Source: a bacterium
GTDB lineage: Bacteria > Bacteroidota > Ignavibacteria > SZUA-365
Direction: 5' to 3'
Assembly (NCBI GenBank): GCA_020444325.1
Contig: JAHLLD010000008.1
Coordinates: forward strand, 124,001-188,000
Length of the DNA: 64,000 nucleotides
Part shown: piece by piece, positions 29,687 to 44,750 of the stretch
How positions within the stretch are numbered: position 1 is the stretch's first letter
How the letters are laid out: each line of letters starts with the position of its first letter
Program-made: the position numbers and the translations under genes
Notes under the pieces: model-generated
Database searches by the model: none
The model's input: only the letters and a program-made list of their open reading frames with translations
Told to the model about the DNA's origin: nothing

Positions 29687-30376
29687 TCAATGTGACCGCG
29701 GCAGTTCTGAAGGGGAGCGCCCCGCCGTCCCGCGCCAGGCCGCACGCAGGATGAGGGAGAACACCAGAAGGGCCAGCGCACTCCAGAGCACACCCCAGAC
29801 AATGGCGGGAATTCCTGTCATGCCAGCGAGTATGCTGGCGTCGGTCACCCGATCCTGCAGCGTGAGCAAGTCCTCCTTGACATCGACGAGCGCGTAGAGG
29901 CAGCTCATGGCGCCGAGGTATTGTACGGTCAGCTGAAGCCAGCGTTCAGGCAGCCAGCGTGCCGCGGCGAGCAATGCGCTCCCTGCCAGCAGGGTAAAAA
30001 TAAGACCGAAGGCATTACGGACAAAGAAGGCGGCTATGAGCAGCAGGGCGGCGCCTGTGACGATGCTGACAGCGACGGCGCTGCCCCGACGCAGGCTGAG
30101 GAGGAAAATGCTGCCGCCGAGCAGCATGCTGCCGAGATATCCACTCGATACCACGAGCCAGGGCCATCCACCCTGGGTGACCGCCATGCCGCCGATGCGC
30201 GCGTCAATCACGATATGGTCGACACTTCCGCCGGTCAGGATTGCGGCAAGGGCATGGCTGCATTCATGGAGAACCACGACGAAGAGCTTGACCGGAATGA
30301 GGATGATGGAGTCCCAGAACACGATCGACAGCACAAGCAGCGCGAGAATGCCAATAAGCTGCTTCCGCGGATTCAT
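29687..30376 (-). CDS. M50B-like membrane metalloprotease family protein
   Basis: 229-residue polytopic inner-membrane protein. 'VVVLHECSHALAAILTGG' holds the HExxH zinc-protease motif inside a membrane segment, followed by 'GGWPWLVVSSGYLGSMLLGG', as in the M50B-like peptidase family. Several further membrane helices follow. The ATG at 30376 forms a TGATG overlap with the polA stop, so the two are co-translated; an in-frame TTG at 30379 is less likely. A second acidic ligand typical of M50 site-2 proteases was not confidently placed, so activity is inferred. Confidence 0.82.
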   Translation of the reverse strand: MNPRKQLIGILALLVLSIVFWDSIILIPVKLFVVVLHECSHALAAILTGGSVDHIVIDARIGGMAVTQGGWPWLVVSSGYLGSMLLGGSIFLLSLRRGSAVAVSIVTGAALLLIAAFFVRNAFGLIFTLLAGSALLAAARWLPERWLQLTVQYLGAMSCLYALVDVKEDLLTLQDRVTDASILAGMTGIPAIVWGVLWSALALLVFSLILRAAWRGTAGRSPSELPRSH

Positions 30377-33075
30377 CAATGTGCCTCCAGCCAGGTCGTT
30401 CCCGTGCCTGCTTCGACGTCGATGGGCACGCGGAGGTCGAGCGCGTTGCGCATCAGGTCTACCACGAGGGTGCGGACTTCCTCGACTTCTGCCTCCGGGA
30501 CTTCAAACACCAGTTCGTCATGCACCTGCATGATCATAGTGCTCATGAGTTCACGTCTGCGCATTTCTGCTTCGATATTGATCATGGCAATTTTAATCAT
30601 GTCGGCTGCACTGCCCTGGATGGGGGCGTTGATGGCGGTGCGCTCGGCGAACATGCGCACGTTCCGGTTTTTCGCGTTGATGTCAGGGATGTAGCGTCGG
30701 CGTCCCCGCATCGTCTCCACGTAGCCGTGCTCCTTTGCGAAGCCGATGGTGCTGGCGATGTAGTCGTTGATACGTGGGTACTTCTCGAAATAGCGGTCGA
30801 TCAGTTCCTTTGCATCGTTGTTGTCGATACCCAGGCGCTGTGCCAGTCCGAAGGCACTGATCCCGTAAAGAATCCCGAAATTCGTAGTTTTTGCCATGCG
30901 GCGCTGGTCGGGAGTGACATCCCCGGCGGAGACATCGAAAAGACGCATAGCCGTGCTGCTGTGGATGTCCTCGCCGCTGGCAAAGGCCTCGATCATGTGT
31001 TCATCGCCGGAAATCTCCGCGGCCAGCCGCAGCTCAATCTGGGAGTAATCTGCGGAAAGCAGAACCGCGCCGCTGTCTTCGGCGACGAAGGCCCTGCGGA
31101 TTTCGCGGCCCGCCTCAGTGCGGATAGGGATATTCTGCAGGTTGGGGTCGGTGGAACTGAGCCTGCCCGTCGCGGCCACGGCCTGATTGTAGGAGGTATG
31201 CACGCGGCCCGTTTCGGGATGGATCAGGCGGGGCAGGGCATCGACGTAGGTGGATTTCAGCTTCGTCAGCTGCCGGTACTGCAGAATCTGCTCAATGATC
31301 GGATGCGTGCCGAGCAGGGATTCGAGGACGGACACATCGGTGGAATATCCCGTCTTGGTTTTCTTCCGTGCCGGAAGATTCAGCTCCTCAAAAAGAACCT
31401 GCCCGAGCTGTTTCGTGGAATTGATATTGAACTCCTCACCGGCCATCGAGTGAATTTCGCCGGTTGCATGTTCAATCTGTCCTTCCATCTCTGAAGAAAT
31501 GTCCTCCAGTATCGCCGTATCGATTTTCACACCGCGATGTTCCATGCGGGTGAGGACATGGACGAGGGGAAACTCGATCTCGTCAAGCAGCTTTTCCTGT
31601 CCCGTTTCCTGAATCTCTCCGCGCAGCGCGGCTGCAAGCTGCAGCGTAATATCCGCATCTTCGGTGGCGTACGGCGCCACATCTTCGAGCGGGATGTCGG
31701 CCATGGATTTCTGATCCTTACCCTTCCCGATCAGCGTCGTGATGGATACGGGCCGGTACTGCAGATGCTGCAGCGCCAGGGCGTCCATGGAATGATCCCC
31801 TTCCGGACGATGGATGTACGCGGCGAGCATGGTGTCGTACAGCGGCTGCATGCTTTCGACACCGTATTTGCGCAGCACGAGGAGGTCAAATTTCAGGTTC
31901 TGTCCGATGACCGTCTGCGTGCCGCTGAACAGAGGGCGCACGGCCTCGAGTACTTCGTCACGACTGAGCTCAGCGTTGACCGGGACATACCAGCCGTGAT
32001 GGGGACGCACGGAAAAGGAGAGTCCGACCAGCTCCGACAGCATCGGATTGGTGCCACTGGTTTCCGTATCGAAACAGAACTCATCGGCGGCCGCAATCTC
32101 CTTCACCATCGCCTGCAGGGCGCCGGTATCCGTCACCGTGATGTATTCATGCTCCACGCTTTCGATATCCCGCAGGCCGATACTCCCACCTGCGCTTTCG
32201 CCGTCGCTTTCCTCATCGAGTCTGTCGAGGAATCGTTTGAGCTCCAGTTCCGTGTACAGTTCACGCAGCCGCGCACTGTCCTTCACCGTAAAGCGCAGAT
32301 CCATGGGATCGACCTCGACAGGGACATCGATATCGATTGTCACGAGTTCGCGGGAGAGCATGGCCTCTTCCTGCTGCTCGGAGAGCTTCTTGTGCACGCC
32401 TTTTTTCGTCACTTCGTCGAGGCGCTCGTAGAGGGCCGGAATGGAGCCGAACTGCTGCACGAGGGGAATCGCGGTTTTCTCACCGATGCCCCGAACGCCC
32501 GGAATGTTGTCAGACTGGTCGCCCATGAGTCCGAGGACGTCTATCACCTGCTCTGGCGCAACACCAAACTTTTCCTTCACGCCTGCGATATCGATGATGT
32601 CATAGCTGTCCCCCGCCTTTCCCGGTTTGTAAAGCACAATATTCTCTGTCACCAGCTGCATGAAATCCTTGTCCGGCGTCACCAGGCAGCAGAACAGTTT
32701 TTCCTTCTCGGCCCGGCGCGCGAGTGTGCCGATGATGTCATCCGCTTCGTAACCCGGCATTTCGAGCACGGGAATCTGGTACGCTTCGACAACCTGTTTG
32801 AGGTAGGGGAGCTGCTCTACCATGTCATCAGGCATTTTCTCCCGCGTGGCCTTGTATTCCGGATAGCGTTTGTGACGGAAGGTCGGTGCGGCGGTGTCGA
32901 AGGCGACGGCGATGTGCTCCGGCTTCTCGTCGGTCAGGATTTTCTCCAGCGTGCTGACGAACCCGTAGATCGCGCTGGTGTTCATTCCCTTCGAATTTAT
33001 CAGGGGACGATTGATGAACGCGAAATACGCACGGTAGGCGATGGCCATGCCATCAAGTATGAAGAAGCGTTCCAT
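30376..33075 (-). CDS. polA: DNA polymerase I
   Basis: Repair and Okazaki-fragment-processing polymerase. 899 residues. ATG 33075 was chosen because the conserved N-terminus follows ('MERFFILDGMAIAYRAYFAF'); the frame is open about 50 residues further upstream without family similarity. Domains: 5'-3' exonuclease (1-290, 'PEYKATREKMPDDMVEQL', 'GYEADDIIGTLA', 'MGDQSDNIPGVRGIGEKTA'), 3'-5' proofreading exonuclease (about 310-490, with 'FCFDTETSGTNPML' and 'YATEDADITLQL', so the acidic residues are intact), and polymerase ('SADYSQIELRLAAEISGDE', 'KTTNFGILYGISAFGLAQRL', 'MIMQVHDELVFEVPE'). Confidence 0.97.
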   Translation of the reverse strand: MERFFILDGMAIAYRAYFAFINRPLINSKGMNTSAIYGFVSTLEKILTDEKPEHIAVAFDTAAPTFRHKRYPEYKATREKMPDDMVEQLPYLKQVVEAYQIPVLEMPGYEADDIIGTLARRAEKEKLFCCLVTPDKDFMQLVTENIVLYKPGKAGDSYDIIDIAGVKEKFGVAPEQVIDVLGLMGDQSDNIPGVRGIGEKTAIPLVQQFGSIPALYERLDEVTKKGVHKKLSEQQEEAMLSRELVTIDIDVPVEVDPMDLRFTVKDSARLRELYTELELKRFLDRLDEESDGESAGGSIGLRDIESVEHEYITVTDTGALQAMVKEIAAADEFCFDTETSGTNPMLSELVGLSFSVRPHHGWYVPVNAELSRDEVLEAVRPLFSGTQTVIGQNLKFDLLVLRKYGVESMQPLYDTMLAAYIHRPEGDHSMDALALQHLQYRPVSITTLIGKGKDQKSMADIPLEDVAPYATEDADITLQLAAALRGEIQETGQEKLLDEIEFPLVHVLTRMEHRGVKIDTAILEDISSEMEGQIEHATGEIHSMAGEEFNINSTKQLGQVLFEELNLPARKKTKTGYSTDVSVLESLLGTHPIIEQILQYRQLTKLKSTYVDALPRLIHPETGRVHTSYNQAVAATGRLSSTDPNLQNIPIRTEAGREIRRAFVAEDSGAVLLSADYSQIELRLAAEISGDEHMIEAFASGEDIHSSTAMRLFDVSAGDVTPDQRRMAKTTNFGILYGISAFGLAQRLGIDNNDAKELIDRYFEKYPRINDYIASTIGFAKEHGYVETMRGRRRYIPDINAKNRNVRMFAERTAINAPIQGSAADMIKIAMINIEAEMRRRELMSTMIMQVHDELVFEVPEAEVEEVRTLVVDLMRNALDLRVPIDVEAGTGTTWLEAH

Positions 33076-33239
33076 GATCTCTCTGTAACGATGAGGTGAA
33101 ACATGAATAATACTGAATGCGGGCGCAATAATGAAGGAGCGCTCCATGATCACCGTGCCTGCTGGCGGCGGCGGGATGCACGCATCCGGTTCACAGGGAT
33201 GGGCTTCCGTTTCGCACAAAATCAAAGTAATTTCCAGTC

Positions 33240-33947
33240 ATGAAGCTTTTGCGAAGTATACTGCTTCCCGGCCTCCTGCTGTTGATCGGAGTGCGCAGCA
33301 CACCTGCACAGAGTGCGGAGGAATGGCTGTATTTCCCTGCTGCCGGTGCGGCAGGGGAGCTGCGTGGTGCTGTCGGACTCCGCATGCTTACACTGCCGCA
33401 GGATGTCGTCGAGGAGGAAATCAACAAGGCGCCGTCGCTCGACGTACGCGGGACGCTTGGACTGTCGCATGGTGTGGATCTCACAGGGGAGGCGATTCTG
33501 CAGTATGTGACCAATCAGTTTCGCCTCGGTGCCCGGTGGTCCTGCGATCTCGGTGTCGTTTCGGCTGCGGCGGGGTACGATGTCGCGCTCTGGTTCGGTT
33601 TCGTGGATTTCGAAGGCTTCGATAACCGGGCAAACGGCTGGACGCACTACCCGTATATCTCTGTGGGACGCCGTACAGGTGACATCGGGGTGACGGTACG
33701 CGGTGAGGCAATCTGGCTGCAGGCAGTGCGCAGTTTTGCCGGTGACAATGAGGTGCGGAATACGGGCAACCGTCTCGCCGGCCTGGCCGCCACGGCCATA
33801 CTCGAACAACCGTTTTGGAAAAACACCCACGCCCTGCTCGGTGTCCGGCTGGCATGGACAGATTTCCATTACCAGTCCTGGTTCGCCTTCTCCACATTCA
33901 AGCGAAAACTCCTGTATTCTGAACTGATTTTCGGCATTCTTCTGTGA
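33240..33947 (+). CDS. Predicted outer-membrane beta-barrel protein
   Basis: 235 residues, function unknown. Signal peptide MKLLRSILLPGLLLLIGVRS, cleavage near TPAQS. The mature part shows repeated beta-strands ('AGAAGELRGAVGLRML', 'LDVRGTLGLSHGVDLTGEA', 'FRLGARWSCDLGVVSAAAGY', 'ALLGVRLAWTDFHYQSWF') and ends with aromatic/hydrophobic residues 'YSELIFGILL'. It overlaps the start of the GDPD lipoprotein gene by GTGA, and a second barrel gene follows that one, so three envelope proteins are made from one message. Confidence 0.72.
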   Translation: MKLLRSILLPGLLLLIGVRSTPAQSAEEWLYFPAAGAAGELRGAVGLRMLTLPQDVVEEEINKAPSLDVRGTLGLSHGVDLTGEAILQYVTNQFRLGARWSCDLGVVSAAAGYDVALWFGFVDFEGFDNRANGWTHYPYISVGRRTGDIGVTVRGEAIWLQAVRSFAGDNEVRNTGNRLAGLAATAILEQPFWKNTHALLGVRLAWTDFHYQSWFAFSTFKRKLLYSELIFGILL

Positions 33948-35188
33948 TACGCTCCCTGCTGATCATACTGGCATCCTGCTGTCTGCTCTCCTGTACGGAG
34001 GATGCGGAATCCGTCATCATCCCTGACTTCGATCCTTCAGGCAGCCTGGCGGGAATGACGCGCCTGAGCGAAGCGACCATGATGGCCATGGAAGGCGTGT
34101 ATGCCGTGACGGACGGGGAACAATTTCTCGGGGATGAGATTGTGCTGAAATATGGCGGCGGGGGACTGTCGGTATTCACCGGTCGCGATGCCACGTACTG
34201 CTTCCTGGAAAGCGGGGCTGTCGATTCCACACTTACCCTTGCAGGATACTGGCGCAGGCTGGTCAACACCGAAACTGGTGTTCTGCAGCTCACCATAGCA
34301 CCGGAACAGGGAGGCGGTATGCTGCAGAGAGGACAGCGACCCCGACAGGGGCAGGTGGTGGCCCGTGGGCAGTTTAACACGAGTAGCGGACAGAGTGGAC
34401 GCGACATCACGCTTGTCTGGCAGCGTCCCGTACATGAGGAAAGCACCCCCTTTCTCATCCTCGCGCACCGGGCCGGAGGACGGAATTCGGACCTGCTTCC
34501 GGCATCGGAAAACTCGGCGGAACTCGTGCGCCTCGCGGAACGCTTCGGCGCAAACGGTGTGGAAATCGACGTGCAGCTTACCAGCGACGGCGTACCCGTC
34601 ATTTATCACGATGAAAAACTCAATCTGCGTCTCACGCAGAAATCCGGTCTCGTCGGGGCCATCAGCGACTATACGATAGCGCAGCTCGAAACCTTTGTGC
34701 GGCTGCGGAACGGCGAGCGCATACCCACGCTCAAGCGGATGCTCGCCACGATACTGCGTCAGACGGATCTGCGTTTTGTCTGGCTGGACAGCAAACCCTC
34801 GGTCCCACTGTCACTGCTTCGCGAGATACAGAAGAGTTATGCCGACAGCGCCCGGATATTCGGACGTGACCTGACCATCGTGATAGGACTGCCTGATGAC
34901 GACAAAGTGCAGGAGCTGCTCAGGCTGACGGATTACGCCGAGGCGGATGTGCTCTGTGAGCTCAGCCTGGATCTCGTACGGCAGACACAGGCGGAGTTCT
35001 GGGCGCCGCGATGGACGTTGGGGACACAGAATGCAGCGGTGCAGGAGATGCAGGGGGAAGGAAGAAAGGTCCTGGTATGGACACTGGACGATGCGAAATT
35101 TATTGAAGCATATCTGCGGGATGGGAATTTCAACGGGATGCTGACAAATTATCCTTCCCTCGTCGCATATTATTACTACAGGCAATGA
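33944..35188 (+). CDS. Glycerophosphodiester phosphodiesterase-family lipoprotein
   Basis: 414 residues; hydrolysis of glycerophosphodiesters to glycerol-3-phosphate and alcohol is the family activity. GTG start overlapping the previous stop. Lipoprotein signal 'MIRSLLIILASCCLLSC' with lipid-attachment Cys17. An unrecognised N-terminal domain, probably beta-rich (about 35-165), precedes the GDPD barrel, which has 'LILAHRAGGRNSD' (His175, Arg176), 'ENSAELVRLAERFGANGVEIDVQ' split around Glu189 and Glu207/Asp209, and 'GVPVIYHDEKLNL' (His222). The C-terminal 'LVWTLDDAKF' and 'GMLTNYP' also fit the family. Flanked by two barrel proteins in one probable operon. Confidence 0.9.
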   Translation: MIRSLLIILASCCLLSCTEDAESVIIPDFDPSGSLAGMTRLSEATMMAMEGVYAVTDGEQFLGDEIVLKYGGGGLSVFTGRDATYCFLESGAVDSTLTLAGYWRRLVNTETGVLQLTIAPEQGGGMLQRGQRPRQGQVVARGQFNTSSGQSGRDITLVWQRPVHEESTPFLILAHRAGGRNSDLLPASENSAELVRLAERFGANGVEIDVQLTSDGVPVIYHDEKLNLRLTQKSGLVGAISDYTIAQLETFVRLRNGERIPTLKRMLATILRQTDLRFVWLDSKPSVPLSLLREIQKSYADSARIFGRDLTIVIGLPDDDKVQELLRLTDYAEADVLCELSLDLVRQTQAEFWAPRWTLGTQNAAVQEMQGEGRKVLVWTLDDAKFIEAYLRDGNFNGMLTNYPSLVAYYYYRQ

Positions 35189-35772
35189 AACGACTTCTCG
35201 TCATAGTGCTGCTCTTGCTGTCATACAATGCATCCCACGCACAGGAATCTGGTGACGATGACTTTTCCATCGTCCTCACTGCAGGCGGTGGTCTCGCGCA
35301 TTACCTGCATGCGGTGGATATCGAAGGGGATGTACGCAAGTATGGTGCAGCGGGACATCTGCGTCTGATGTGGCATCCCGATCATCGGCTGCGCATGGGC
35401 GTGGAAACCGGATGGACGTTCTTCTATCATTATGATATCTCCGAAGTTGACACCCCCTTTGGTCCGACCAGCGCAGCACTGACACTGACTGCCGTCCCCG
35501 TTCTGCTCGTATTCTCCATGCCAGTGCACGAGGCGGTAACACTGTATGCCGGGACGGGAGGGTATATCGTGCGCTCACATGCGACGTCGTTCGACAATAC
35601 GGTGAATGTTACATCCTTCAGCCAGGGGTGGATGGCAGCGGGGAGCTGGGAACTCGGGAAGCTGGGAGGGATTGCAATCGAATCGGAGCTGACCTGGTAC
35701 GGCGCCACCGAATTCGATGACGCCGCGGTGATCCTGCAAATGCAGGCGAGTCTGCCGATTTTGCGGTGGTAA
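35185..35772 (+). CDS. Predicted outer-membrane beta-barrel protein
   Basis: 195 residues, function unknown. Signal peptide MKRLLVIVLLLLSYNASHAQ. Barrel-like strands follow: 'FSIVLTAGGGLAHYLHA', 'GHLRLMWHPDHRLRMGVETG', 'AALTLTAVPVLLVFSM', 'VTLYAGTGGYIVRSH' and the final 'AVILQMQASLPILRW'. Its ATG overlaps the GDPD stop (ATGA at 35185). Only 14 bp separate its stop from the convergent xth gene, with no clear terminator. Confidence 0.7.
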   Translation: MKRLLVIVLLLLSYNASHAQESGDDDFSIVLTAGGGLAHYLHAVDIEGDVRKYGAAGHLRLMWHPDHRLRMGVETGWTFFYHYDISEVDTPFGPTSAALTLTAVPVLLVFSMPVHEAVTLYAGTGGYIVRSHATSFDNTVNVTSFSQGWMAAGSWELGKLGGIAIESELTWYGATEFDDAAVILQMQASLPILRW

Positions 35773-35786
35773 GTGCCTGCGCGGCG

Positions 35787-36551
35787 CTATTTCACATCGA
35801 GAACAACGGGTGCATGGTCCGACCCCATGACATCCATCTGTATCGATGCGTCCTTGCATTGCGGAAGGAAATCCGGCGTCACGATAAAATAGTCGATACG
35901 CCAGCCCGCATTCCGATCGCGGGCGCGTGTCCGCATGTCCCACCAGGAATAGTGGTCGGCGGCATCGGGATGGAAATGCCGGAAGGTATCAACGTAGCCG
36001 AGTTCGGTTATGCGATCGAGCCATGCCCGTTCGATGGGCATGAAGCCCGAAGTCTTCTCGTTCTGCTTGGGGTTTTTCAGATCGATCTCTTTGTGTGCGG
36101 TGTTGACATCGCCGCAGATGACCAGCGGAGTGCCGGATTTTCGTTCTTCCTCGAAGTGATCCAGGATCTGATCATAAAAATCGAGTTTGAAACGAAGACG
36201 TTCCTCACCCCGACCGCCATTGGGGAAATAAATGTTGTACAGAACGAAGTCCTTGTACGCGGTGCGCAGGACGCGTCCCTCGGTGTCCATGGGAATGATG
36301 TCCGTTCCGGAACGCACATCTTCGGGACGTGTGCGCGTGAATGTTGCGACGCCACTGTAGCCTTTGCGTTCTCCGGCATGCCAGTACGTATAGTAATCCG
36401 GTGGTGTCAGCAGAGTTTCGTCGAGCTGCTCGGGGTGCGCCTTGGTTTCCTGGACGCAGAGCACGTCAGGAGCTTCGTCCTCGAGGTAATCAAAAAAGGT
36501 TTTCTTCGCAGCGGCACGGATTCCATTGACATTCCAGGATACTAACCTCAT
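35787..36551 (-). CDS. xth: Exodeoxyribonuclease III (AP endonuclease)
   Basis: Base-excision-repair nuclease cutting at abasic sites. 254 residues, normal length. Family motifs: 'RLVSWNVNGIRAA' with the metal-coordinating Asn, 'PDVLCVQETKAHPEQL' with the catalytic Glu, 'LYNIYFPNGGRGEERL', 'VICGDVNTAHKEIDL' with the Asp/Asn pair, 'TFRHFHPDAADHYSWWDMRT' and the C-terminal 'GSDHAPVVLDV'. Its start overlaps the end of the HerA-like gene (ATGA at 36548-36551), tying the two together translationally. Confidence 0.95.
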   Translation of the reverse strand: MRLVSWNVNGIRAAAKKTFFDYLEDEAPDVLCVQETKAHPEQLDETLLTPPDYYTYWHAGERKGYSGVATFTRTRPEDVRSGTDIIPMDTEGRVLRTAYKDFVLYNIYFPNGGRGEERLRFKLDFYDQILDHFEEERKSGTPLVICGDVNTAHKEIDLKNPKQNEKTSGFMPIERAWLDRITELGYVDTFRHFHPDAADHYSWWDMRTRARDRNAGWRIDYFIVTPDFLPQCKDASIQMDVMGSDHAPVVLDVK

Positions 36552-39202
36552 TCATCGTCTCCTTTCTTGTCCGATGATGTGGACGAGCTCTTGCGAGAGC
36601 GTCCCGTTCCACGACGCGCTCCGCGGCGTGGCGCGCGTTTCTGCGGCTTTTTCTCAGGCTGTTTCTCCTTGTCTTCGGAGGAATCGGCATCTGCGGTCGC
36701 GCCGCTTTCATCGGTATTGCCTGCTGAGGATTGTTTGCCGGATTGGTCCTCACCCTTGTGGTTGTCAGCCTTGCTCTTTCCGGCATTGGGATCAAATTCT
36801 TCGATGGTGAGAGTGGATGAAGAGCTGCTCTTCGCCGCATCGGAGGATTTTTCACTATCCTCCTTCGCGGAACTGCTGCTGGATGCGGGCTCTTCCTTTC
36901 TGCCGGTCTTTCTGCCGCGACCACCGCGCTTCCCGCGTGTGGACTTACGTGCAGGCTTCTCTTCCTTCGCAGAATCCTTTTCACCGTCTGCATTCTTGTC
37001 CGCGGCCTTCTGCTCATCAGCTTTCTGGTCTGAGGTTTTTTCTATCTTTGCAGTACCGGCATCGCCTGATTCCGGTGCGCTGTCCTCTCCAGCTTCGTCA
37101 TCCCCGGTCTTATCTGATTCCCGGGCCTCGCTGTCTTCACTGCGGGAGTGCTTCCCGCCGCGGCGGCGGCGCGAACGCGTGGTGCTTTTTGATGAGGAGC
37201 TTTTCGCCGACGAAGAGGAGGACGTCTTCTCCTCCTGGGCATCGTCTTCTGATTGCTCAGCGTCATCCTCATGCTCATCTTCGAGGCGCTGCTTTTCCGC
37301 CTCTTCCTTCTTGCGACGTTCGGCTTCTTCCTTCTCTTTCTCTTCGCGTTTGCGACGTTCTTCGCGTTCCTTCTCCTCGCGCTTGCGGCGTTCTTCACGC
37401 TCCTGTTCCTGTCGTTTGCGGCGTTCCTCCTCCTGTGCCATGTATTCCTGGCGGCGGCGTTCCTGCTCCACCTTCATCTCGTCGAGATACTGGTGAATGT
37501 TTTCCGCGTTTTTCTGTGTGATGACGGGCAGGGGGACGCGCCGATGGTATGGCGAGTCGGATGCGGTGTAGAGGAAGTCGCCGTCCTCATACCGCACGGC
37601 CGGCTGCAGGAAGTGCTGCGAGAGATTGAGGAGGTCAGCGATACCCGCGGGCTCTTCCGCGAAGGTGATGGGACCGATGAAGTAAGTTTGAATTTTCCGC
37701 GCCAGCTGCTGATCAAGCGATGCTGCTGTTTCCAGGGTGAGGCAGAAACCGAGTCCATGCCTGCGTCCATTGGTCAGCAGCGTCTGCAGTGTGTCATTGA
37801 AACGGTCGGAGCCCGCTTCGCGCAGCCCTGCACCGTTGCGGCCGACGTATTCGTCGATATTGTTGAAGATGAACAGCACCGGGGTGCGGATCTTCAGGCG
37901 TTTCAGGCGCTCGTCGATGAGCGTCTGCGAGAGCGTGCCGATAAAGCGCAGGATGTCGGTGGTCTTCTGTCCCTGGACGACAAGGAGGCTGGACTTGTCG
38001 TCGCTGTTCAGTTGGCCGACGAGGTCCTGTATCGTCTTGCGCGTCGCGGGAGGAACATCCTTCGAATAGGTCTCGAAGACGGACTGGATTTCCGCCTTGA
38101 GATCGTACAGCGTACGGCGGGCGGCATGACTTTTTGATTCCTGGCTGAAATCGTCGATCATGTCGAGCATGTCCTTGGTATTCTTCTCCGAGAAGCGCTC
38201 TCCACGGTATGTTTCCGCAATGCCGTTCATCAGTTCGTTCATGTATTCCTCGACATCCTCCTCGAGCCCGTCGAGGATATCGACACTGATTTCCGTAATG
38301 AACTGATCGACCGTCTGCTCATTGGGACGGAAGATGGTCACGCGATTTTCACGCATCCACGTGGAAATGGGGAAACTGAAATCATGACGGCGCTGCTCGA
38401 GAACGGAGGGGAGAATCATCATATCGAGATAATCGAGTACCGCGCGCTTGTGTGCGGAACGGTCTCCGGGATTGCGCATTGCCGAGAATACACTGGCGGG
38501 GACGAATTTGTCGTTCAGACAGAGCACACTGGCGTGCGGAAAATGCGTCAGTTGTGGAGCGAGCGACAGCGTGCCATGATTGTTCACATCGCAGTACACG
38601 ACATGAACCGGTGTTTCCGACTGCTGCAACAGGGATTGAATCAGGTTGGTTGCGATCGTAGTGCGTGCACGGGGACGTGCGCTGATCACGGCTGCGTTAC
38701 CGCGCAGGAGGGCCGCAGCGTCAAGACCGACTTTCACATCAGGGTTGCTGCGGTACTTTCCGATATCCACCCTCGACCCATTCTCCTCGAGCCGGCTTTC
38801 CGGGGCGATATGATGGATGACGCTGCGGGTGATGTCGTCGTCGAGAACATGCGCCGCGCCGTCAAATGCGGGGAAAGTGTCTGCGCCCTGAATTTCCGGC
38901 CCGGTCTTGGCATTCTTGTAGCGTAGCTCCTGTCCGATCGGTGTGGACGTGCAGGTGAGGGTCACCAGGTTCTTTTTCGAAGATTTCTTTTCCTCGGGAA
39001 CGGGGAAATAATCCACGATCTGCAGGATGGTGTAGCGCTTGTCACGGGCAGCATGGAACATGTTCTCCGCGGCAATGAGGCGTCCGGGCTGGATGATGCT
39101 GATTTCATCATGGGGAACGCTGAGGGAAACCGTACAGAGAAAACGCGTCTGGCTGTTCGGGGTGAGATCCGTGACCGCACCGGAGATGCTGTTGATGAAC
39201 AT
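36548..39202 (-). CDS. HerA-like P-loop ATPase with degenerate Walker A and RG/charged tail
   Basis: 884 residues, function unknown. ATG 39202 begins a folded N-terminal region ('MFINSISGAVTDL'); open frame upstream of it is not protein-like. Residues 1-110 resemble a HAS-barrel; the ATPase core follows. The Walker A position reads 'GNAAVISARPRARTT' (168-182), lacking the GK(T/S), while a Walker B-like 'PVLFIFNNIDEYV' (441-453) and 'NGRRHGLGFCLTLETAASL' (HerA-type arginine region) remain. Residues about 577-650 form a long E/R/K coiled coil ('EERRKREEKEREERRKRE'), and 650-884 are disordered, Ser/Glu/Lys-rich with basic patches 'RSRRRRGGK', 'RGKRGGRGRKTGRK' and 'RAPRRGARRGTGRSRK' that look nucleic-acid binding. 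Lies between dnaX (67 bp) and xth (overlap). Confidence 0.75.
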   Translation of the reverse strand: MFINSISGAVTDLTPNSQTRFLCTVSLSVPHDEISIIQPGRLIAAENMFHAARDKRYTILQIVDYFPVPEEKKSSKKNLVTLTCTSTPIGQELRYKNAKTGPEIQGADTFPAFDGAAHVLDDDITRSVIHHIAPESRLEENGSRVDIGKYRSNPDVKVGLDAAALLRGNAAVISARPRARTTIATNLIQSLLQQSETPVHVVYCDVNNHGTLSLAPQLTHFPHASVLCLNDKFVPASVFSAMRNPGDRSAHKRAVLDYLDMMILPSVLEQRRHDFSFPISTWMRENRVTIFRPNEQTVDQFITEISVDILDGLEEDVEEYMNELMNGIAETYRGERFSEKNTKDMLDMIDDFSQESKSHAARRTLYDLKAEIQSVFETYSKDVPPATRKTIQDLVGQLNSDDKSSLLVVQGQKTTDILRFIGTLSQTLIDERLKRLKIRTPVLFIFNNIDEYVGRNGAGLREAGSDRFNDTLQTLLTNGRRHGLGFCLTLETAASLDQQLARKIQTYFIGPITFAEEPAGIADLLNLSQHFLQPAVRYEDGDFLYTASDSPYHRRVPLPVITQKNAENIHQYLDEMKVEQERRRQEYMAQEEERRKRQEQEREERRKREEKEREERRKREEKEKEEAERRKKEEAEKQRLEDEHEDDAEQSEDDAQEEKTSSSSSAKSSSSKSTTRSRRRRGGKHSRSEDSEARESDKTGDDEAGEDSAPESGDAGTAKIEKTSDQKADEQKAADKNADGEKDSAKEEKPARKSTRGKRGGRGRKTGRKEEPASSSSSAKEDSEKSSDAAKSSSSSTLTIEEFDPNAGKSKADNHKGEDQSGKQSSAGNTDESGATADADSSEDKEKQPEKKPQKRAPRRGARRGTGRSRKSSSTSSDKKGDDE

Positions 39203-39269
39203 GGCAATGTCTCTTGAAAAAACGTGTGTTATATCCCGGGCCGGGAAGCTGTGCTCGACTGCAGGGGCA

Positions 39270-40808
39270 TTAGTGCCGCGGCAGCAGTTCTGCGTCGAGG
39301 TTGTTGATGAGCATCTGTACGATGGGATGAGGAGGGTTTTCCGGTGAAGATGAAGGCTGTTCGCCCTGTGCCGGTTCGGCTTCTCCGGGGACGGTCGCTT
39401 TATGCGAACCGGCGGCGGAAAGCGAGGCGGAATTGAGTGCCTGGCGGAAGCGTTCTTCTGCCTGGCGCAGGGGTTCAGTCGCATTCGACTCCCGATGCGG
39501 TCGGTTCTCGGCGGCAGGTGGCGACGCGGTTGTGGGCGGAGCGGCAGCGGCAGCTGAGGGGCGCGCAGCTGCGCTGCCCTTCACCGATGCGTTGCTCTTC
39601 ACGGTGGAATGTCCCTGAGACGAATTCCCGGTTGGACTGTTTCCGGATGCGGTGCCGCCACCATGCGGCAGAGAGACGCCGCCCTGCTCGATCTGCGCCA
39701 GCAACGTGCTGATCTCGACGGTGCTGTCCATCTTGATCATGTCGATTAGCGCAATTTCGAATTTCAGGCGAGGTTGGGGACTGAACTTGATGGCCTGCAT
39801 GGTCTGCGCATTGAGTTTGAGCAGACGAAGCAGGTCGCCTTCGGTGAACTGTTCCGCATCGCTGCGATAGCGATCACGGATGTCTTCAGGGGCCTCGATA
39901 AGCCGCGTATCTCCGGTGGACCGTACCACGAGAAGATTCCGCAGGTGTTCTTCGAGACCGGCCAGAAAATCCTGAATATCGTACCCGCTCATTACAACAT
40001 CCTCGGCGAGCGCAAAGCCCTCGCGGGTGTTTTTAGTAATGATCAGATTCGTGAGTGAAAAAAAAGTGTCCTGATCAACAATATGCAGAACCTGTCGCAC
40101 GTCATCGTAACGCAGGCTGCTGCCGCTGAAGGCGACAACCTGGTCGAAGATGCTCTCCGCATCACGCATCGAACCGTCACCCTTGCGCGCGATGGCGAAA
40201 AGGGCATTTTCCTCAGCGTCGATGTTTTCGGCTGAGCAGATGCTGCGCAGTTGACCAACAATATCTTCTGTTGCTATGCGTCTGAAATCGTACCGCTGGC
40301 AGCGGGAAATGACCGTCGGAGGCATTTTATGCGGTTCCGTGGTCGCAAAAATGAACAGTGCATGTGCCGGCGGTTCCTCGAGTGTCTTCAGCAGGGCATT
40401 GAACGCCCCTTTTGTCAGCATATGCACTTCATCAATGATGTACATTTTGTACTTGTCCCTGCTCGGCGTATAACGCACGGCATCCCGGATGGTGCGCACC
40501 TGTTCCACGCCGTTGTTCGACGCGCCGTCGATTTCAATGACGTCGATGCAGCGCCCCTGCGAAATTTCCACGCAGGTATCGCAGGTATTGCAGGGCTCAC
40601 CGTCTTTTGCGTTGGGACAGTTGAGCGCCTTGGCAAAAATGCGCGCCGTGGTCGTCTTCCCCACACCTCTGGGTCCGGAGAACAGGTACGCGTGTGCAAT
40701 GCGTTCCAGCTTGATGCTGTTCAGCAGTGTATTGACGACGTGTCCCTGCGCTACGACTTCGGTGAACGTGGAAGGCCGGTATTTCCGGGCAGTTACAAGA
40801 AATGACAT
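39270..40808 (-). CDS. dnaX: DNA polymerase III subunit gamma/tau
   Basis: Clamp-loader ATPase of the replicative polymerase. 512 residues. 'RKYRPSTFTEVVAQ', Walker A 'FSGPRGVGKTTTARIFAKAL', zinc-binding cysteines in 'CPNAKDGEPCNTCDTC', Walker B/DExx 'MYIIDEVHMLTKGAFNALLK', SRC motif 'PPTVISRCQRYDF'. The C-terminal third (about 385-480) is Ala/Ser/Pro-rich linker. No slippery heptamer was noted, so no claim is made for a separate gamma form. It is first in the dnaX-HerA-like-xth run. Confidence 0.95.
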   Translation of the reverse strand: MSFLVTARKYRPSTFTEVVAQGHVVNTLLNSIKLERIAHAYLFSGPRGVGKTTTARIFAKALNCPNAKDGEPCNTCDTCVEISQGRCIDVIEIDGASNNGVEQVRTIRDAVRYTPSRDKYKMYIIDEVHMLTKGAFNALLKTLEEPPAHALFIFATTEPHKMPPTVISRCQRYDFRRIATEDIVGQLRSICSAENIDAEENALFAIARKGDGSMRDAESIFDQVVAFSGSSLRYDDVRQVLHIVDQDTFFSLTNLIITKNTREGFALAEDVVMSGYDIQDFLAGLEEHLRNLLVVRSTGDTRLIEAPEDIRDRYRSDAEQFTEGDLLRLLKLNAQTMQAIKFSPQPRLKFEIALIDMIKMDSTVEISTLLAQIEQGGVSLPHGGGTASGNSPTGNSSQGHSTVKSNASVKGSAAARPSAAAAAPPTTASPPAAENRPHRESNATEPLRQAEERFRQALNSASLSAAGSHKATVPGEAEPAQGEQPSSSPENPPHPIVQMLINNLDAELLPRH

Positions 40809-40880: not shown

Positions 40881-43800
40881 TTAATCCGTCACCGGCAGAG
40901 TGATGATGACGGTGCTGCCCTCCCCGACGGCGCTTTCGATGCGGATTTCCCCACCTGCATCGGTTATGATTTTGCGAACGATCGCCAGTCCGAGTCCCAT
41001 GCCTTCTGTCTTTGTCGAGAAATTGGGTTCGAAAATGCGTGGGAGCAACTCCGGTGCGATACCGCTTCCCGTATCGCTGATCCGTATCGTGAGCACTGTA
41101 TCGTCTGAAATCGCCTGAATGCGGATGGATCCTTCATCCTGCATGGCCTGCACCGCGTTGCGGAGAATATTGGTCAGTGCGCGGGAGAATTCTTCCCGGT
41201 CAGCGACGATGCGGGGAAGCTGACCCTGCAGATCGAGTGTGAATTCAACGTGCTCATGGTTGTGGAAGAGGGCAACAGACTCCTGCAGCGCCTCCGAGAC
41301 GTCTATTGCACCGGTACTGCGTCGCGGCATGCGGCCGAAACGGGAGAATTCGTCGCTAATGCGCGAGAGACTGTCAATCTGGTCGATCAGTGTGCGGGTT
41401 ACTTTCTCGATGATGCTTCCGAGCTGTTCGGCACCGTCTTTCCACGCGCGGTGGAGGTGCTGGACTGCGAGCTTCATCGGCGTAAGGGGATTGCGAATCT
41501 CATGGGCAACCTGCTTGGCCATTTCCTTCCAGGCGAGCTCGCGTTCCGCCGCAGCGAGTTCTTCCTGGCTTTGCCTGAGGCGCCGCGTCATCGTATTGAA
41601 GCTGTCCATCAGATCTACGATCTCCGCCGATCCTCTCACGCTCAGCTGCCGGTCGAGATTCCCCGCAGAGATATCACGTGTGGCGCTGAGAAGTTCCTGC
41701 AAGGGACGCGAGATCTGCCTGGCGAGCGCCGTGCTGATCATGACGACGAGAACGGCGATGATCGTAATAAAGAGAAAGATCGTGGCAGATGCGCGCACGA
41801 AACCCTGCTCGACCTGGCCCTGCTGGAAGAGGGTGGGAGTGGATATTACCGCAGCCAGCTGGCCGGACTGGTCGCGCAGTGCTCGATAGCCGACATAGTA
41901 GGCGAAATCACCGATGCGTTCCGGGACGAAATAGGCGTCCTTTCCCCGCTGGACGATGTTGACATAGGCGAGAGGGTGCAGCCGGTCATTGAGTAGTCCG
42001 ACATGATACAGTTCGGGTTTGCTCGTCGCGACAAGCTCCGCATCGGCATACACATTCAAATCCCTGCCTGAACGAAAGCGAATTTCCTGACAGAGCATGT
42101 CGTCGACGAATTCCGGCGTCGCCATGATGTCGAGTGAGTCCGGAAGACGCTCGAGGATATTACTGCGCAGGACGTCAAGATCTTCCGCTACCTGCTGTTC
42201 AATTTCACGGCGCGTCTCCTCGATCACGAAATCCCTGCCGTAAAACCACACAAGGAGCAGAGGGATTGCTGCTACCGCCAGAAGGGCGAGCTGCAGCTTG
42301 CGGGCGAACGTAAAGCGCGTAAACAGCTTGCCGCGCTCCCTGAACAGTGTGATGACGAGAAGGATGAATATGCTGAAGGCGAAATAGAGTACGACGATTC
42401 GCAGCCCGCGATACACCGAGAGTATGAACACGGATTTCCCGCGCGTGATGGACAGGATATTCGCGTGCGCGTCGGGAATCGACATGAAATAACTGGCAAG
42501 CGGGATTCCGTCAACCGGCAGCGTGCTCCAGACAGTCTGCGCACTGTCGGCGAATGCCTGCGTTACTTCCGACGGGAGACCGATACTGCGCTCGAGTCTG
42601 CGGTCTGTTGTCTGGACCATGCGCCCGTTGGAAAAACGGCTGATGATGTAATCGTCTTCAGGAGCGAGACTTTCGCTCGCAGGCGCGCTGCGCAGGAGGT
42701 CTACAGATTGTCTGCGTACCTGCATCGGGTCGGGAGTTTCCAGGATGACGACAGCGAGCAGTTTTTCCCCTTCCTTCGTGTGAATATCGGTGTAGGCCTT
42801 GTAATATCGGCGTCCTCTCGTCTCATGCCAGCGATAGGTCGACTGCACGATGCCTTCTGTGCTCTCGACGGTACTCGAGAGGGTGTGCATGGAAAAGAGG
42901 AAGGGGTCATTTCCTACGGCGAAACGTGAGACCAGCGTCCGCGCCGAATCCAGCAGGAGTATGGCGGAATTGTTCTGCAGCCGGCTGAGCGGTGAACCGG
43001 ACCAGATGCGGAATGCGGCTTCGTAATCGAGCCGCCCCTCACGTGAAGGCACGGGCAGTGCCTCCAGTTCCGTCCGGGAGACATACTGCAGTGTCTGTTC
43101 GAGAAGCACCTGTGACCATCCGTCGACGGGACGCGCGAGATCGATGGCGATGGCTTCGATTTCGCTGAAACGTTTGTCCTCCATGAAATGGCCAAAGAGT
43201 CCTACTGTCAGTAATCCTCCGAGTGTCACACAAACGGTGAATGGGACAAGGAGGGAAGCGGACCTGCCGTGCAGAAGGGGAACGCGGGCGAGTTGCGGTA
43301 CGCCGAGCAGCAGCAGGCAGAGCAGATAAATCCAGAAGGGGAGCAGGACATCGCGAGTGGTAAGATGCAGCAGGAGGAGCCCGGCGATGCCGCCGGCTGT
43401 GAACAGGGCGATGCGGAGGGCTCTGCCGAGCGACTCTCCCATCGCACGTTTCAGGAACAGGTACATGCTCAGAAGCGCAAAGCCCAGTGCCAGTGAGAAC
43501 AGATATGCGTTGACGATCATGAAGAGAAACATCGGCTGGGAAAGAAGTCCGGCCACATCGTCATAGTTGAACTGCGAATCGATCACGAAGCTGCGCAGCG
43601 AGGCGGCATACCCGCGCAGCATGAAGGGGAGCAGCAGGAACATGGCCGTCCCGGCCACCCATGCGGCCAACGGCTTGAGCGGGATGTCGCGCCGATGCAG
43701 CGCGCTGCGGTACACGAACATTGCGGAAAACAGCAATGCCAGTACCGACAGCAGCAGCTCCCCCGGTGCGCTCGCGATGCCACCGCCAAAGGTGGATGCG

Positions 43801-44750
43801 AAGTACGCCGGATCGAGCATCGCCTCAGGCAACATGAATTCGGTAAATGCTGTCCAGTGCAGCAGCATACGCAGCAGCCAGATATGGATGATCGCAAGCA
43901 GGGGAGCGGCCAACGGCAGGCGCAGGTTGCCATACCACCGGAAGAGCGGGATGGTGATGACGATCAGGATGCTGAAGAAGAGAAACGCCAGCACACGGTT
44001 GAACTGTCTGCGAATTTGTCCGAGGTAGCTGGTCTGATCGGCCGCATGGAACGAAAGATACCCGAGCGTGTCACCCTCCGCCACGAATGGAATATGGCGC
44101 CGTTCTCCGTCACGCTCCTGTGATCGCGTTCGCTGGTATGTGAGATCCGCATCCAGTTCGCGGCTGAGTGCCGGAATCACCGCTTCGCTGTTGAGGAAGC
44201 GCTGGTTGATGGGGACCACGGTCGTAAGCGGAGTGCCGACACGCAGGGAACCAAGCGTGCGTCCGTGATGGTCGAGCACATGCCGTACCTGGGTCAACAG
44301 GATGTAGGGGCTGCGCTGCAGGATGGAAAATTTCGCTTCGGGCTGTGGTGTGGCCGATGCGGTCATGGGCTCGCCGGCGAACGCGATGAGCTTGCCGCTG
44401 CCGTCACGGAGTTCAAATGACCAGTCCTCTTCCGGAAATTCCGCGAGCATACGCGTCGAAGCTGCGGCCCGCGCCCTGGCGTTCTGCTGCGGGGCGAGGA
44501 GCTCAGCAGTCCCGGATTCCAGAAGACGCGCCCCGAGATCGCGCATTTCAGACAGCCGCTGATCCAGTTTCCGGGTGATCAGCGCGGACTCACCCTCGTC
44601 GACTTCAACGTGCAGCGTTTCCCAGTTTCGTTCGATGCTCTGTGTAAAATATTCCCTCGCGGCGAAGACGATGGACAGCAAAAACAGCAGGACCGCCGTG
44701 GCATACAGCCAGCGCTGTTCACGCTGCAACCATGTCAGGCGTTCGTTCAT
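40881..44750 (-). CDS. Multi-sensor NtrY-like histidine kinase, 1289 residues
   Basis: Membrane sensor kinase with unknown signal and no response regulator nearby. Order: membrane helix (about 14-31); first extracytoplasmic region (about 32-240) with 'PYILLTQVRHVLDHHGRTLG'; a block of about eight membrane helices ('VLAFLFFSILIVITIPLF' through 'VCVTLGGLLTVGLFGHF'); second extracytoplasmic region of about 220 residues; two more helices; third, cache-like region ('RDLNVYADAELVATSKPEL'); helix 'IFLFITIIAVLVVMIS'; HAMP ('RQISRPLQELLSATRDISAG'); HisKA with 'KQVAHEIRNPLTPMKLAVQH'; HATPase_c with N box 'LTNILRNAVQAMQ' and G boxes 'DTGSGIAPELLPRIFEP' and 'KTEGMGLGLAIVRKI'. All catalytic motifs are intact. 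It starts 21 bp after the DUF4783 gene. Confidence 0.92.
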   Translation of the reverse strand: MNERLTWLQREQRWLYATAVLLFLLSIVFAAREYFTQSIERNWETLHVEVDEGESALITRKLDQRLSEMRDLGARLLESGTAELLAPQQNARARAAASTRMLAEFPEEDWSFELRDGSGKLIAFAGEPMTASATPQPEAKFSILQRSPYILLTQVRHVLDHHGRTLGSLRVGTPLTTVVPINQRFLNSEAVIPALSRELDADLTYQRTRSQERDGERRHIPFVAEGDTLGYLSFHAADQTSYLGQIRRQFNRVLAFLFFSILIVITIPLFRWYGNLRLPLAAPLLAIIHIWLLRMLLHWTAFTEFMLPEAMLDPAYFASTFGGGIASAPGELLLSVLALLFSAMFVYRSALHRRDIPLKPLAAWVAGTAMFLLLPFMLRGYAASLRSFVIDSQFNYDDVAGLLSQPMFLFMIVNAYLFSLALGFALLSMYLFLKRAMGESLGRALRIALFTAGGIAGLLLLHLTTRDVLLPFWIYLLCLLLLGVPQLARVPLLHGRSASLLVPFTVCVTLGGLLTVGLFGHFMEDKRFSEIEAIAIDLARPVDGWSQVLLEQTLQYVSRTELEALPVPSREGRLDYEAAFRIWSGSPLSRLQNNSAILLLDSARTLVSRFAVGNDPFLFSMHTLSSTVESTEGIVQSTYRWHETRGRRYYKAYTDIHTKEGEKLLAVVILETPDPMQVRRQSVDLLRSAPASESLAPEDDYIISRFSNGRMVQTTDRRLERSIGLPSEVTQAFADSAQTVWSTLPVDGIPLASYFMSIPDAHANILSITRGKSVFILSVYRGLRIVVLYFAFSIFILLVITLFRERGKLFTRFTFARKLQLALLAVAAIPLLLVWFYGRDFVIEETRREIEQQVAEDLDVLRSNILERLPDSLDIMATPEFVDDMLCQEIRFRSGRDLNVYADAELVATSKPELYHVGLLNDRLHPLAYVNIVQRGKDAYFVPERIGDFAYYVGYRALRDQSGQLAAVISTPTLFQQGQVEQGFVRASATIFLFITIIAVLVVMISTALARQISRPLQELLSATRDISAGNLDRQLSVRGSAEIVDLMDSFNTMTRRLRQSQEELAAAERELAWKEMAKQVAHEIRNPLTPMKLAVQHLHRAWKDGAEQLGSIIEKVTRTLIDQIDSLSRISDEFSRFGRMPRRSTGAIDVSEALQESVALFHNHEHVEFTLDLQGQLPRIVADREEFSRALTNILRNAVQAMQDEGSIRIQAISDDTVLTIRISDTGSGIAPELLPRIFEPNFSTKTEGMGLGLAIVRKIITDAGGEIRIESAVGEGSTVIITLPVTD

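Follow-up and report, generated by a model that had tools for sequence, protein, structure and literature searches.

Gene X, an open reading frame in the 64,000-nt stretch of DNA analysed here (the window), very probably encodes a pseudo-ATPase of the HerA fold, in which the architecture and the arginine-finger motif of HerA are retained and the residues of the ATP site are replaced. The features of gene X and its neighbours are listed in Table 1. Proteins of the HerA/FtsK kind are regarded as DNA pumps; a conserved lineage of HerA in which the catalytic residues are lost and the fold, the arginine-finger motif and the operon position are kept would show that the HerA ring can be used without ATP. 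The order in which gene X occurs is uncultured, and the gene also suggests that this order has an unrecognised core component with links to dnaX, xth and polA, for which neither Pfam nor NCBIfam has a model. Our explanation as a whole, in which gene X serves replication or gap repair as a HerA-type scaffold that works independently of ATP, stands at about even chances.

Table 1. Features of gene X and neighbouring genes in the window (residue numbers refer to the gene X protein)
Feature	Position	Strand	Basis or remark
Gene X, HerA-fold pseudo-ATPase (very probable) with disordered tail	36548..39202	(-)	884 aa, start ATG at 39202
N-terminal beta domain, residues 1-92, at the place of the HAS barrel	38927..39202	(-)	Model strands; full-length Foldseek matches to HerA
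RecA/HerA-like core, residues 116-566, with inserted helical bundle	37505..38857	(-)	Model, Foldseek, hhalign
Helical bundle, residues 236-398, inserted in the core as in HerA	38009..38497	(-)	Model helices
Degenerate P-loop SARPRARTT, residues 174-182, R180 at the place of the Walker A Lys	38657..38683	(-)	S174, A175 and P177-T181 in 14/14
End of strand 2, DVNNxG, residues 205-210, acidic position 209 variable	38573..38590	(-)	hhalign, conservation
Walker B site VLFIFNNIDE, residues 442-451, D/E replaced by N447 N448	37850..37879	(-)	hhalign to HerA, model
GRRHG, residues 479-483, at the place of the HerA arginine-finger motif GRKxG	37754..37768	(-)	14/14; aligned to EGRKYG
E491, at the approximate place of the HerA sensor Gln (SQRP)	37730..37732	(-)	hhalign, conservation
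Predicted continuous ER/K-rich helix, residues 564-641	37280..37513	(-)	pLDDT 70-80 over 581-630
Basic patch 1, residues 667-688 (TTRSRRRRGGK)	37139..37204	(-)	Conservation analysis
Basic patch 2, residues 752-769 (RKSTRGKRGGRGRKTGRK)	36896..36949	(-)	Conservation analysis
Conserved tail motif LTIEEFDPNAGKS, residues 798-810	36773..36811	(-)	In most f1 homologs
Basic patch 3, residues 855-871 (KRAPRRGARRGTGRSRK)	36590..36640	(-)	Sequence, homolog tails
dnaX, upstream neighbour	39270..40808	(-)	Pfam DNA_pol3_delta2 1.5e-45, gamma3 domain III
xth-type AP endonuclease/exonuclease III, downstream neighbour	35787..36551	(-)	Pfam Exo_endo_phos 2.1e-34; 4-nt overlap with gene X
polA, linked part of the neighbourhood	30376..33147	(-)	Downstream of xth in L022, L024, L025, L027, L029 and the window

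Gene X encodes a protein with the HerA fold

All homologs of gene X start with the same Met-Phe. Searches of the protein against Pfam and NCBIfam gave no match above the curated cut-offs, including those of DUF87 and HerA_C. The best Pfam match was NACHT, which scored 16.8 bits against a cut-off of 26.7 and spanned the Walker B region only. A sequence search against the PDB returned nothing useful and no match above the cut-off.

An AlphaFold2 model was built from 14 homologs, with moderate confidence (pLDDT 66.5, pTM 0.63; pLDDT ~64 in the P-loop block). In this model an N-terminal beta domain (strands at residues 7-16, 20-30, 42-50, 55-65 and 79-92), a RecA-like core and an inserted helical bundle form the architecture of HerA. 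The HerA of D. radiodurans (drHerA) has an equivalent helical insert in its core (PMC9960219). When the model was compared with the PDB by Foldseek, the best 50 matches listed were all HerA or the HerA relative TdpA (9.1e-15 to 1.9e-10). The matches ran over the whole length (8xav at 9.1e-15, 8zis, 8xau, 8wet, 9x1l, 4d2i, 7wrw), with TM-scores of only ~0.4 on both sides and unreliable placement of domains. A second model, longer and poorer, again matched the HerA family (1.7e-8).

Profile alignment pointed the same way. The gene X profile aligned by hhalign to a mixed set of intact HerA proteins from relatives with an E-value of 6.3e-7 over 430 columns; smaller HerA subsets gave weaker values (3.8e-4 to 0.013), and the controls FtsK and DnaX gave 0.45 and 0.27. 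Single-sequence alignments to individual HerA proteins were weak (best 6e-4), and a profile was required. The fold spans residues 1-566, and its core carries a net negative charge (-11 in the window protein). The HerA-like core proposed in the first-pass annotation is thus borne out by Foldseek and the profile alignment, and fold prediction did not reveal an unrelated fold.

The ATP site of gene X is remade

The catalytic residues of drHerA are K175, T176, D487/E488 and D220 (PMC9960219). The alignment places K175 and T176 at R180 and T181 of gene X, D487/E488 at N447/N448, and D220 at the variable position 209. SARPRARTT, with R180 in 14/14 homologs, stands where the Walker A pattern GxxGxGK[ST] is expected, and the earlier observation that the Walker A lysine is lost and that the P-loop lacks GKT was correct. 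In the model a strand ends at residue 174 and a helix begins at 177, with no phosphate-cradling loop between them (moderate confidence).

The Walker B acidic pair is likewise absent, with N447-N448 (FIFNN) in its place in 14/14. This assignment follows from the hhalign alignment and from the predicted strand 442-446, which ends just before the two asparagines. The first-pass annotation had read a Walker B-like DE pair here; that pair, D450-E451, sits three residues past N447-N448 and off the Walker B position. The acidic residue after strand 2 is also missing: position 209 is T, A, M, Q, H, N, L, S or I among the homologs. The nearby D205 is invariant and could conceivably have taken over the role of the lost acidic residue. 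The sensor Gln of HerA is replaced, and E491 is invariant. The arginine-finger motif GR[KR]xG is present as GRRHG in 14/14.

Because three defining catalytic features of HerA are lacking, gene X falls, as far as sequence can place it, outside the active HerA translocases. Given the loss or remaking of these residues, its protein should neither hydrolyse ATP nor translocate. Since the Walker B acids and the strand-2 acidic residue are lost in addition to the lysine, the case against a motor is stronger than the first-pass annotation made it.

The altered site is conserved

The 14 homologs are 54-88% identical to the window protein, and their frames are intact. S174, A175, P177, R178, A179, R180, T181, N447 and N448 are identical in 14/14. 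The P-loop and Walker B windows lie at conservation percentiles of 0.996 and 0.968, and few stretches of the protein are as conserved as SA[RK]PRAR[ST]. Both sites show synonymous codon variation (e.g. AGC/AGT vs TCC at S174), and at most altered-site positions the changes are synonymous only. Conservation of the gene X core is on par with that of dnaX and xth.

The fixed residues and the mostly synonymous codon changes indicate, at the level of sequence, that the altered ATP site is a selected, remade state rather than local decay. Local decay of the P-loop is ruled out by the 14/14 conservation, and no homolog has GKT. That the whole gene is a decaying HerA relic without function, as the lost active-site residues could suggest, has next to no likelihood in view of the intact frame, the identity among the 14 genomes, the strong conservation of the altered site with its codon pattern, and the fixed operon position.

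The same conservation bears on another explanation, in which the Arg-rich loop binds a nucleotide, another phosphate ligand or the backbone of DNA or RNA, and such hydrolysis-free binding moves the ring from one state to another. The P-loop site is not merely eroded, and GRRHG is invariant, as this explanation would have it. However, the glycines are lost, the Walker B acids are Asn in 14/14, and the model lacks the cradling loop. Nucleotide binding at a Lys-to-Arg site is still compatible with the sequence. We consider such a ligand-driven switch unlikely.

A charged helix and basic patches form the tail

Residues 577-641 consist of 80% E/R/K, with a best heptad a/d hydrophobic fraction of 0.16 and E-K/R i+4 pairs about 4 s.d. 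above shuffles. This combination of composition, few heptad hydrophobics and excess i+4 pairs suggests, as read from the sequence, that in genus g1 the segment is a single ER/K helix and not a coiled coil. The helix is shorter or more Ala-rich in other genera, where a coiled coil may occur. The first-pass description of the tail therefore holds for the long charged helix and the three Arg/Gly patches; its "coiled coil" is doubtful on composition and the heptad test.

Past the helix, the homolog tails are low-complexity and disordered and contain two to four patches of Arg/Gly or Arg/Ser. Most f1 members have the motif [LI]xxE[ED]FDPxAGK in the stretch that separates patch 2 from patch 3. IEEFDP was considered as a docking motif common to other proteins and was rejected; its one DNA-level match in the own genome was gene X itself.

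Gene X is linked to dnaX, xth and polA

In the window, dnaX lies 67 nt upstream of gene X. The dnaX-X gap is 48-78 nt in 13/13 loci examined, so the tight linkage to dnaX noticed earlier is kept across the order. The xth gene is downstream of gene X in each contig that reaches that far, directly in family f1 and one gene further in family f3. The translational overlap with the AP endonuclease gene in the first-pass annotation is present in the window and the close relative L017 (a 4-nt, ATGA-type overlap), but it is not general: elsewhere the two genes are 3-27 nt apart, with larger spacings of 88 and 198 nt, or have one gene inserted between them. In family f3 this extra gene is of the carboxymuconolactone-decarboxylase type, as seen in L027 (5575-6376).

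In L024, L025, L027 and L029, the genes dnaX, X, xth and polA are clustered on a single strand (window counterpart 30376-40808). Three other genes lie between xth and polA in the window and in L022; those in the window are on the opposite strand and include a GDPD-like one. In L018 and L021, polA was absent from the 5-6.5 kb next to xth. A 1289-aa membrane sensor histidine kinase-like protein is encoded directly upstream of dnaX (window 40881-44750), and this adjacency occurs in seven homologous loci.

YbaB/EbfC, a small nucleoid-associated protein, is in many bacteria usually encoded right after dnaX. The fold of gene X is unrelated to it, and ybaB is on another contig of the window's genome.

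The neighbours also bear on the idea that gene X is an RNA-side scaffold, of the degradosome or ribosome-assembly type, that merely shares a transcription unit with dnaX. Its ER/K helix, acidic stretches and Arg/Gly patches recall the general layout of RNA-binding scaffolds, and its core is acidic. However, dnaX, xth and, often, polA encode DNA enzymes, and the fold relatives act on DNA. An RNA-side role is in our judgement distinctly improbable.

Gene X is confined to one uncultured order

Homologs were found in 14 of 391 genomes of the class, all of one uncultured order of Bacteroidota-type bacteria (families f1 and f3). Among 247 genomes sampled across the phylum, none but the window's own genome had one. 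A pattern-limited scan of 84,980 species yielded only 11 gene X loci, from MAGs whose titles read Ignavibacteria, Bacteroidetes or Chlorobiota. G011 and G012, both from the order, lack gene X; because neither has a true dnaX match, they are uninformative on its absence. Phage origin was considered and rejected, as no relative occurred among viral contigs. An intact version at the same locus was also sought: 18 dnaX loci outside the order carry PorV-like or other genes downstream, never gene X.

Proposed role of gene X

The beta domain, RecA-like core and helical bundle of gene X retain the HerA layout. Because this layout is kept, the protein probably still forms a ring or partial ring. Its ATP site has been remade, the Gly-rich P-loop becoming SARPRARTT and the Walker B pair NN, with the strand-2 acidic residue gone. 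The stiff ER/K helix bears the long disordered tail, whose Arg/Gly patches may hold nucleic acid; with a core of net negative charge, any DNA binding would depend on the tail. The short conserved tail motif may dock a partner. Most likely, gene X is made together with DnaX, the ExoIII-type nuclease (Xth) and Pol I (PolA), and where replication or gap repair takes place it acts alongside them as a passive tether or scaffold.

The first-pass annotation had suggested a structural repair or replication factor rather than an active translocase. The losses at Walker A, Walker B and strand 2 uphold its non-motor part; for the replication or repair part, we infer such a role from the gene neighbourhood. 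A further-reaching proposal, that an ATP-independent HerA ring is a core hub linking the clamp-loader gene product to ExoIII and Pol I, enzymes of base excision and gap repair, throughout the order, is tentative and rather doubtful. If true, a ring-motor fold would have been turned into a structural hub of the replisome or of repair.

Relation of gene X to other HerA proteins

Gene X was compared with the HerA DNA translocase of the HerA-NurA system from D. radiodurans (7wrw/7wrx), S. solfataricus (4d2i) and T. kodakarensis (9x1l). It shares with the HerA translocases the full-length structural match, the N-terminal beta domain, the RecA-like core, GR[KR]xG and the insertion of the helical bundle between strand 2 and later strands. 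It differs from them in that the Walker A Lys, the Walker B acids, the strand-2 acidic residue and the sensor Gln are all replaced. Unlike HerA-NurA, it has no NurA and has the long ER/K helix, the Arg/Gly tail and the linkage to dnaX and xth. In the HerA-NurA resection system the nuclease NurA is usually encoded next to HerA; a search for NurA in 21 genomes gave 0/21.

The best Foldseek matches are defence HerA proteins (SIR2-HerA/Nezha and DUF4297-HerA; 8xav, 8zis, 8wiv), and the closest sequence relatives among the class genomes (e.g. L119 and L127) are HerA proteins that match Pfam DUF87. Defence HerA proteins are patchy in occurrence and associated with effector nucleases, and their GxxGxGKS and acidic Walker B are intact, whereas gene X is a core gene, motif-inactive, and lies beside dnaX. 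Inactive P-loop modules are known in defence, for example iSTAND BrxB and the inactive Swi2/Snf2 module of PglZ and DndH (PMC12839542, PMC10853773). These P-loop ATPases serve without catalysis as binding or scaffold modules and provide a precedent, but they belong to other P-loop families and to fast-evolving defence; gene X evolves slowly and is outside a defence locus. In the open-licence papers searched, no inactive HerA was described, only other inactive P-loop families.

Retention of GRRHG while the cis catalytic residues are lost is the pattern expected of a trans-acting subunit, and gene X might accordingly be an inactive member of a mixed ring that gives its arginine finger to an active HerA/FtsK-type ATPase. 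Its own genome has no HerA_C or NurA match and no intact HerA was detected there; the two DUF87 matches are both weak, one being FtsK and the other (C3) only a short P-loop stretch. A mixed ring with an active HerA is thus unlikely in this genome. HerA is also sporadic among the relatives, whereas gene X is universal, and no ATPase other than DnaX adjoins it. Overall, we regard a mixed ring as highly unlikely.

True HerA among the relatives was found in G001, G007 and G012. The HerA or HerA_C-family proteins of these single order members (L125 in G001, L135 in G007 and L124 in G012) are likely products of mobile or defence genes. L130 (G008:C1:1797000-1803500) is a very long open frame with a HerA/DUF87-type P-loop domain, of which >1300 aa are shown and 1822 reported.
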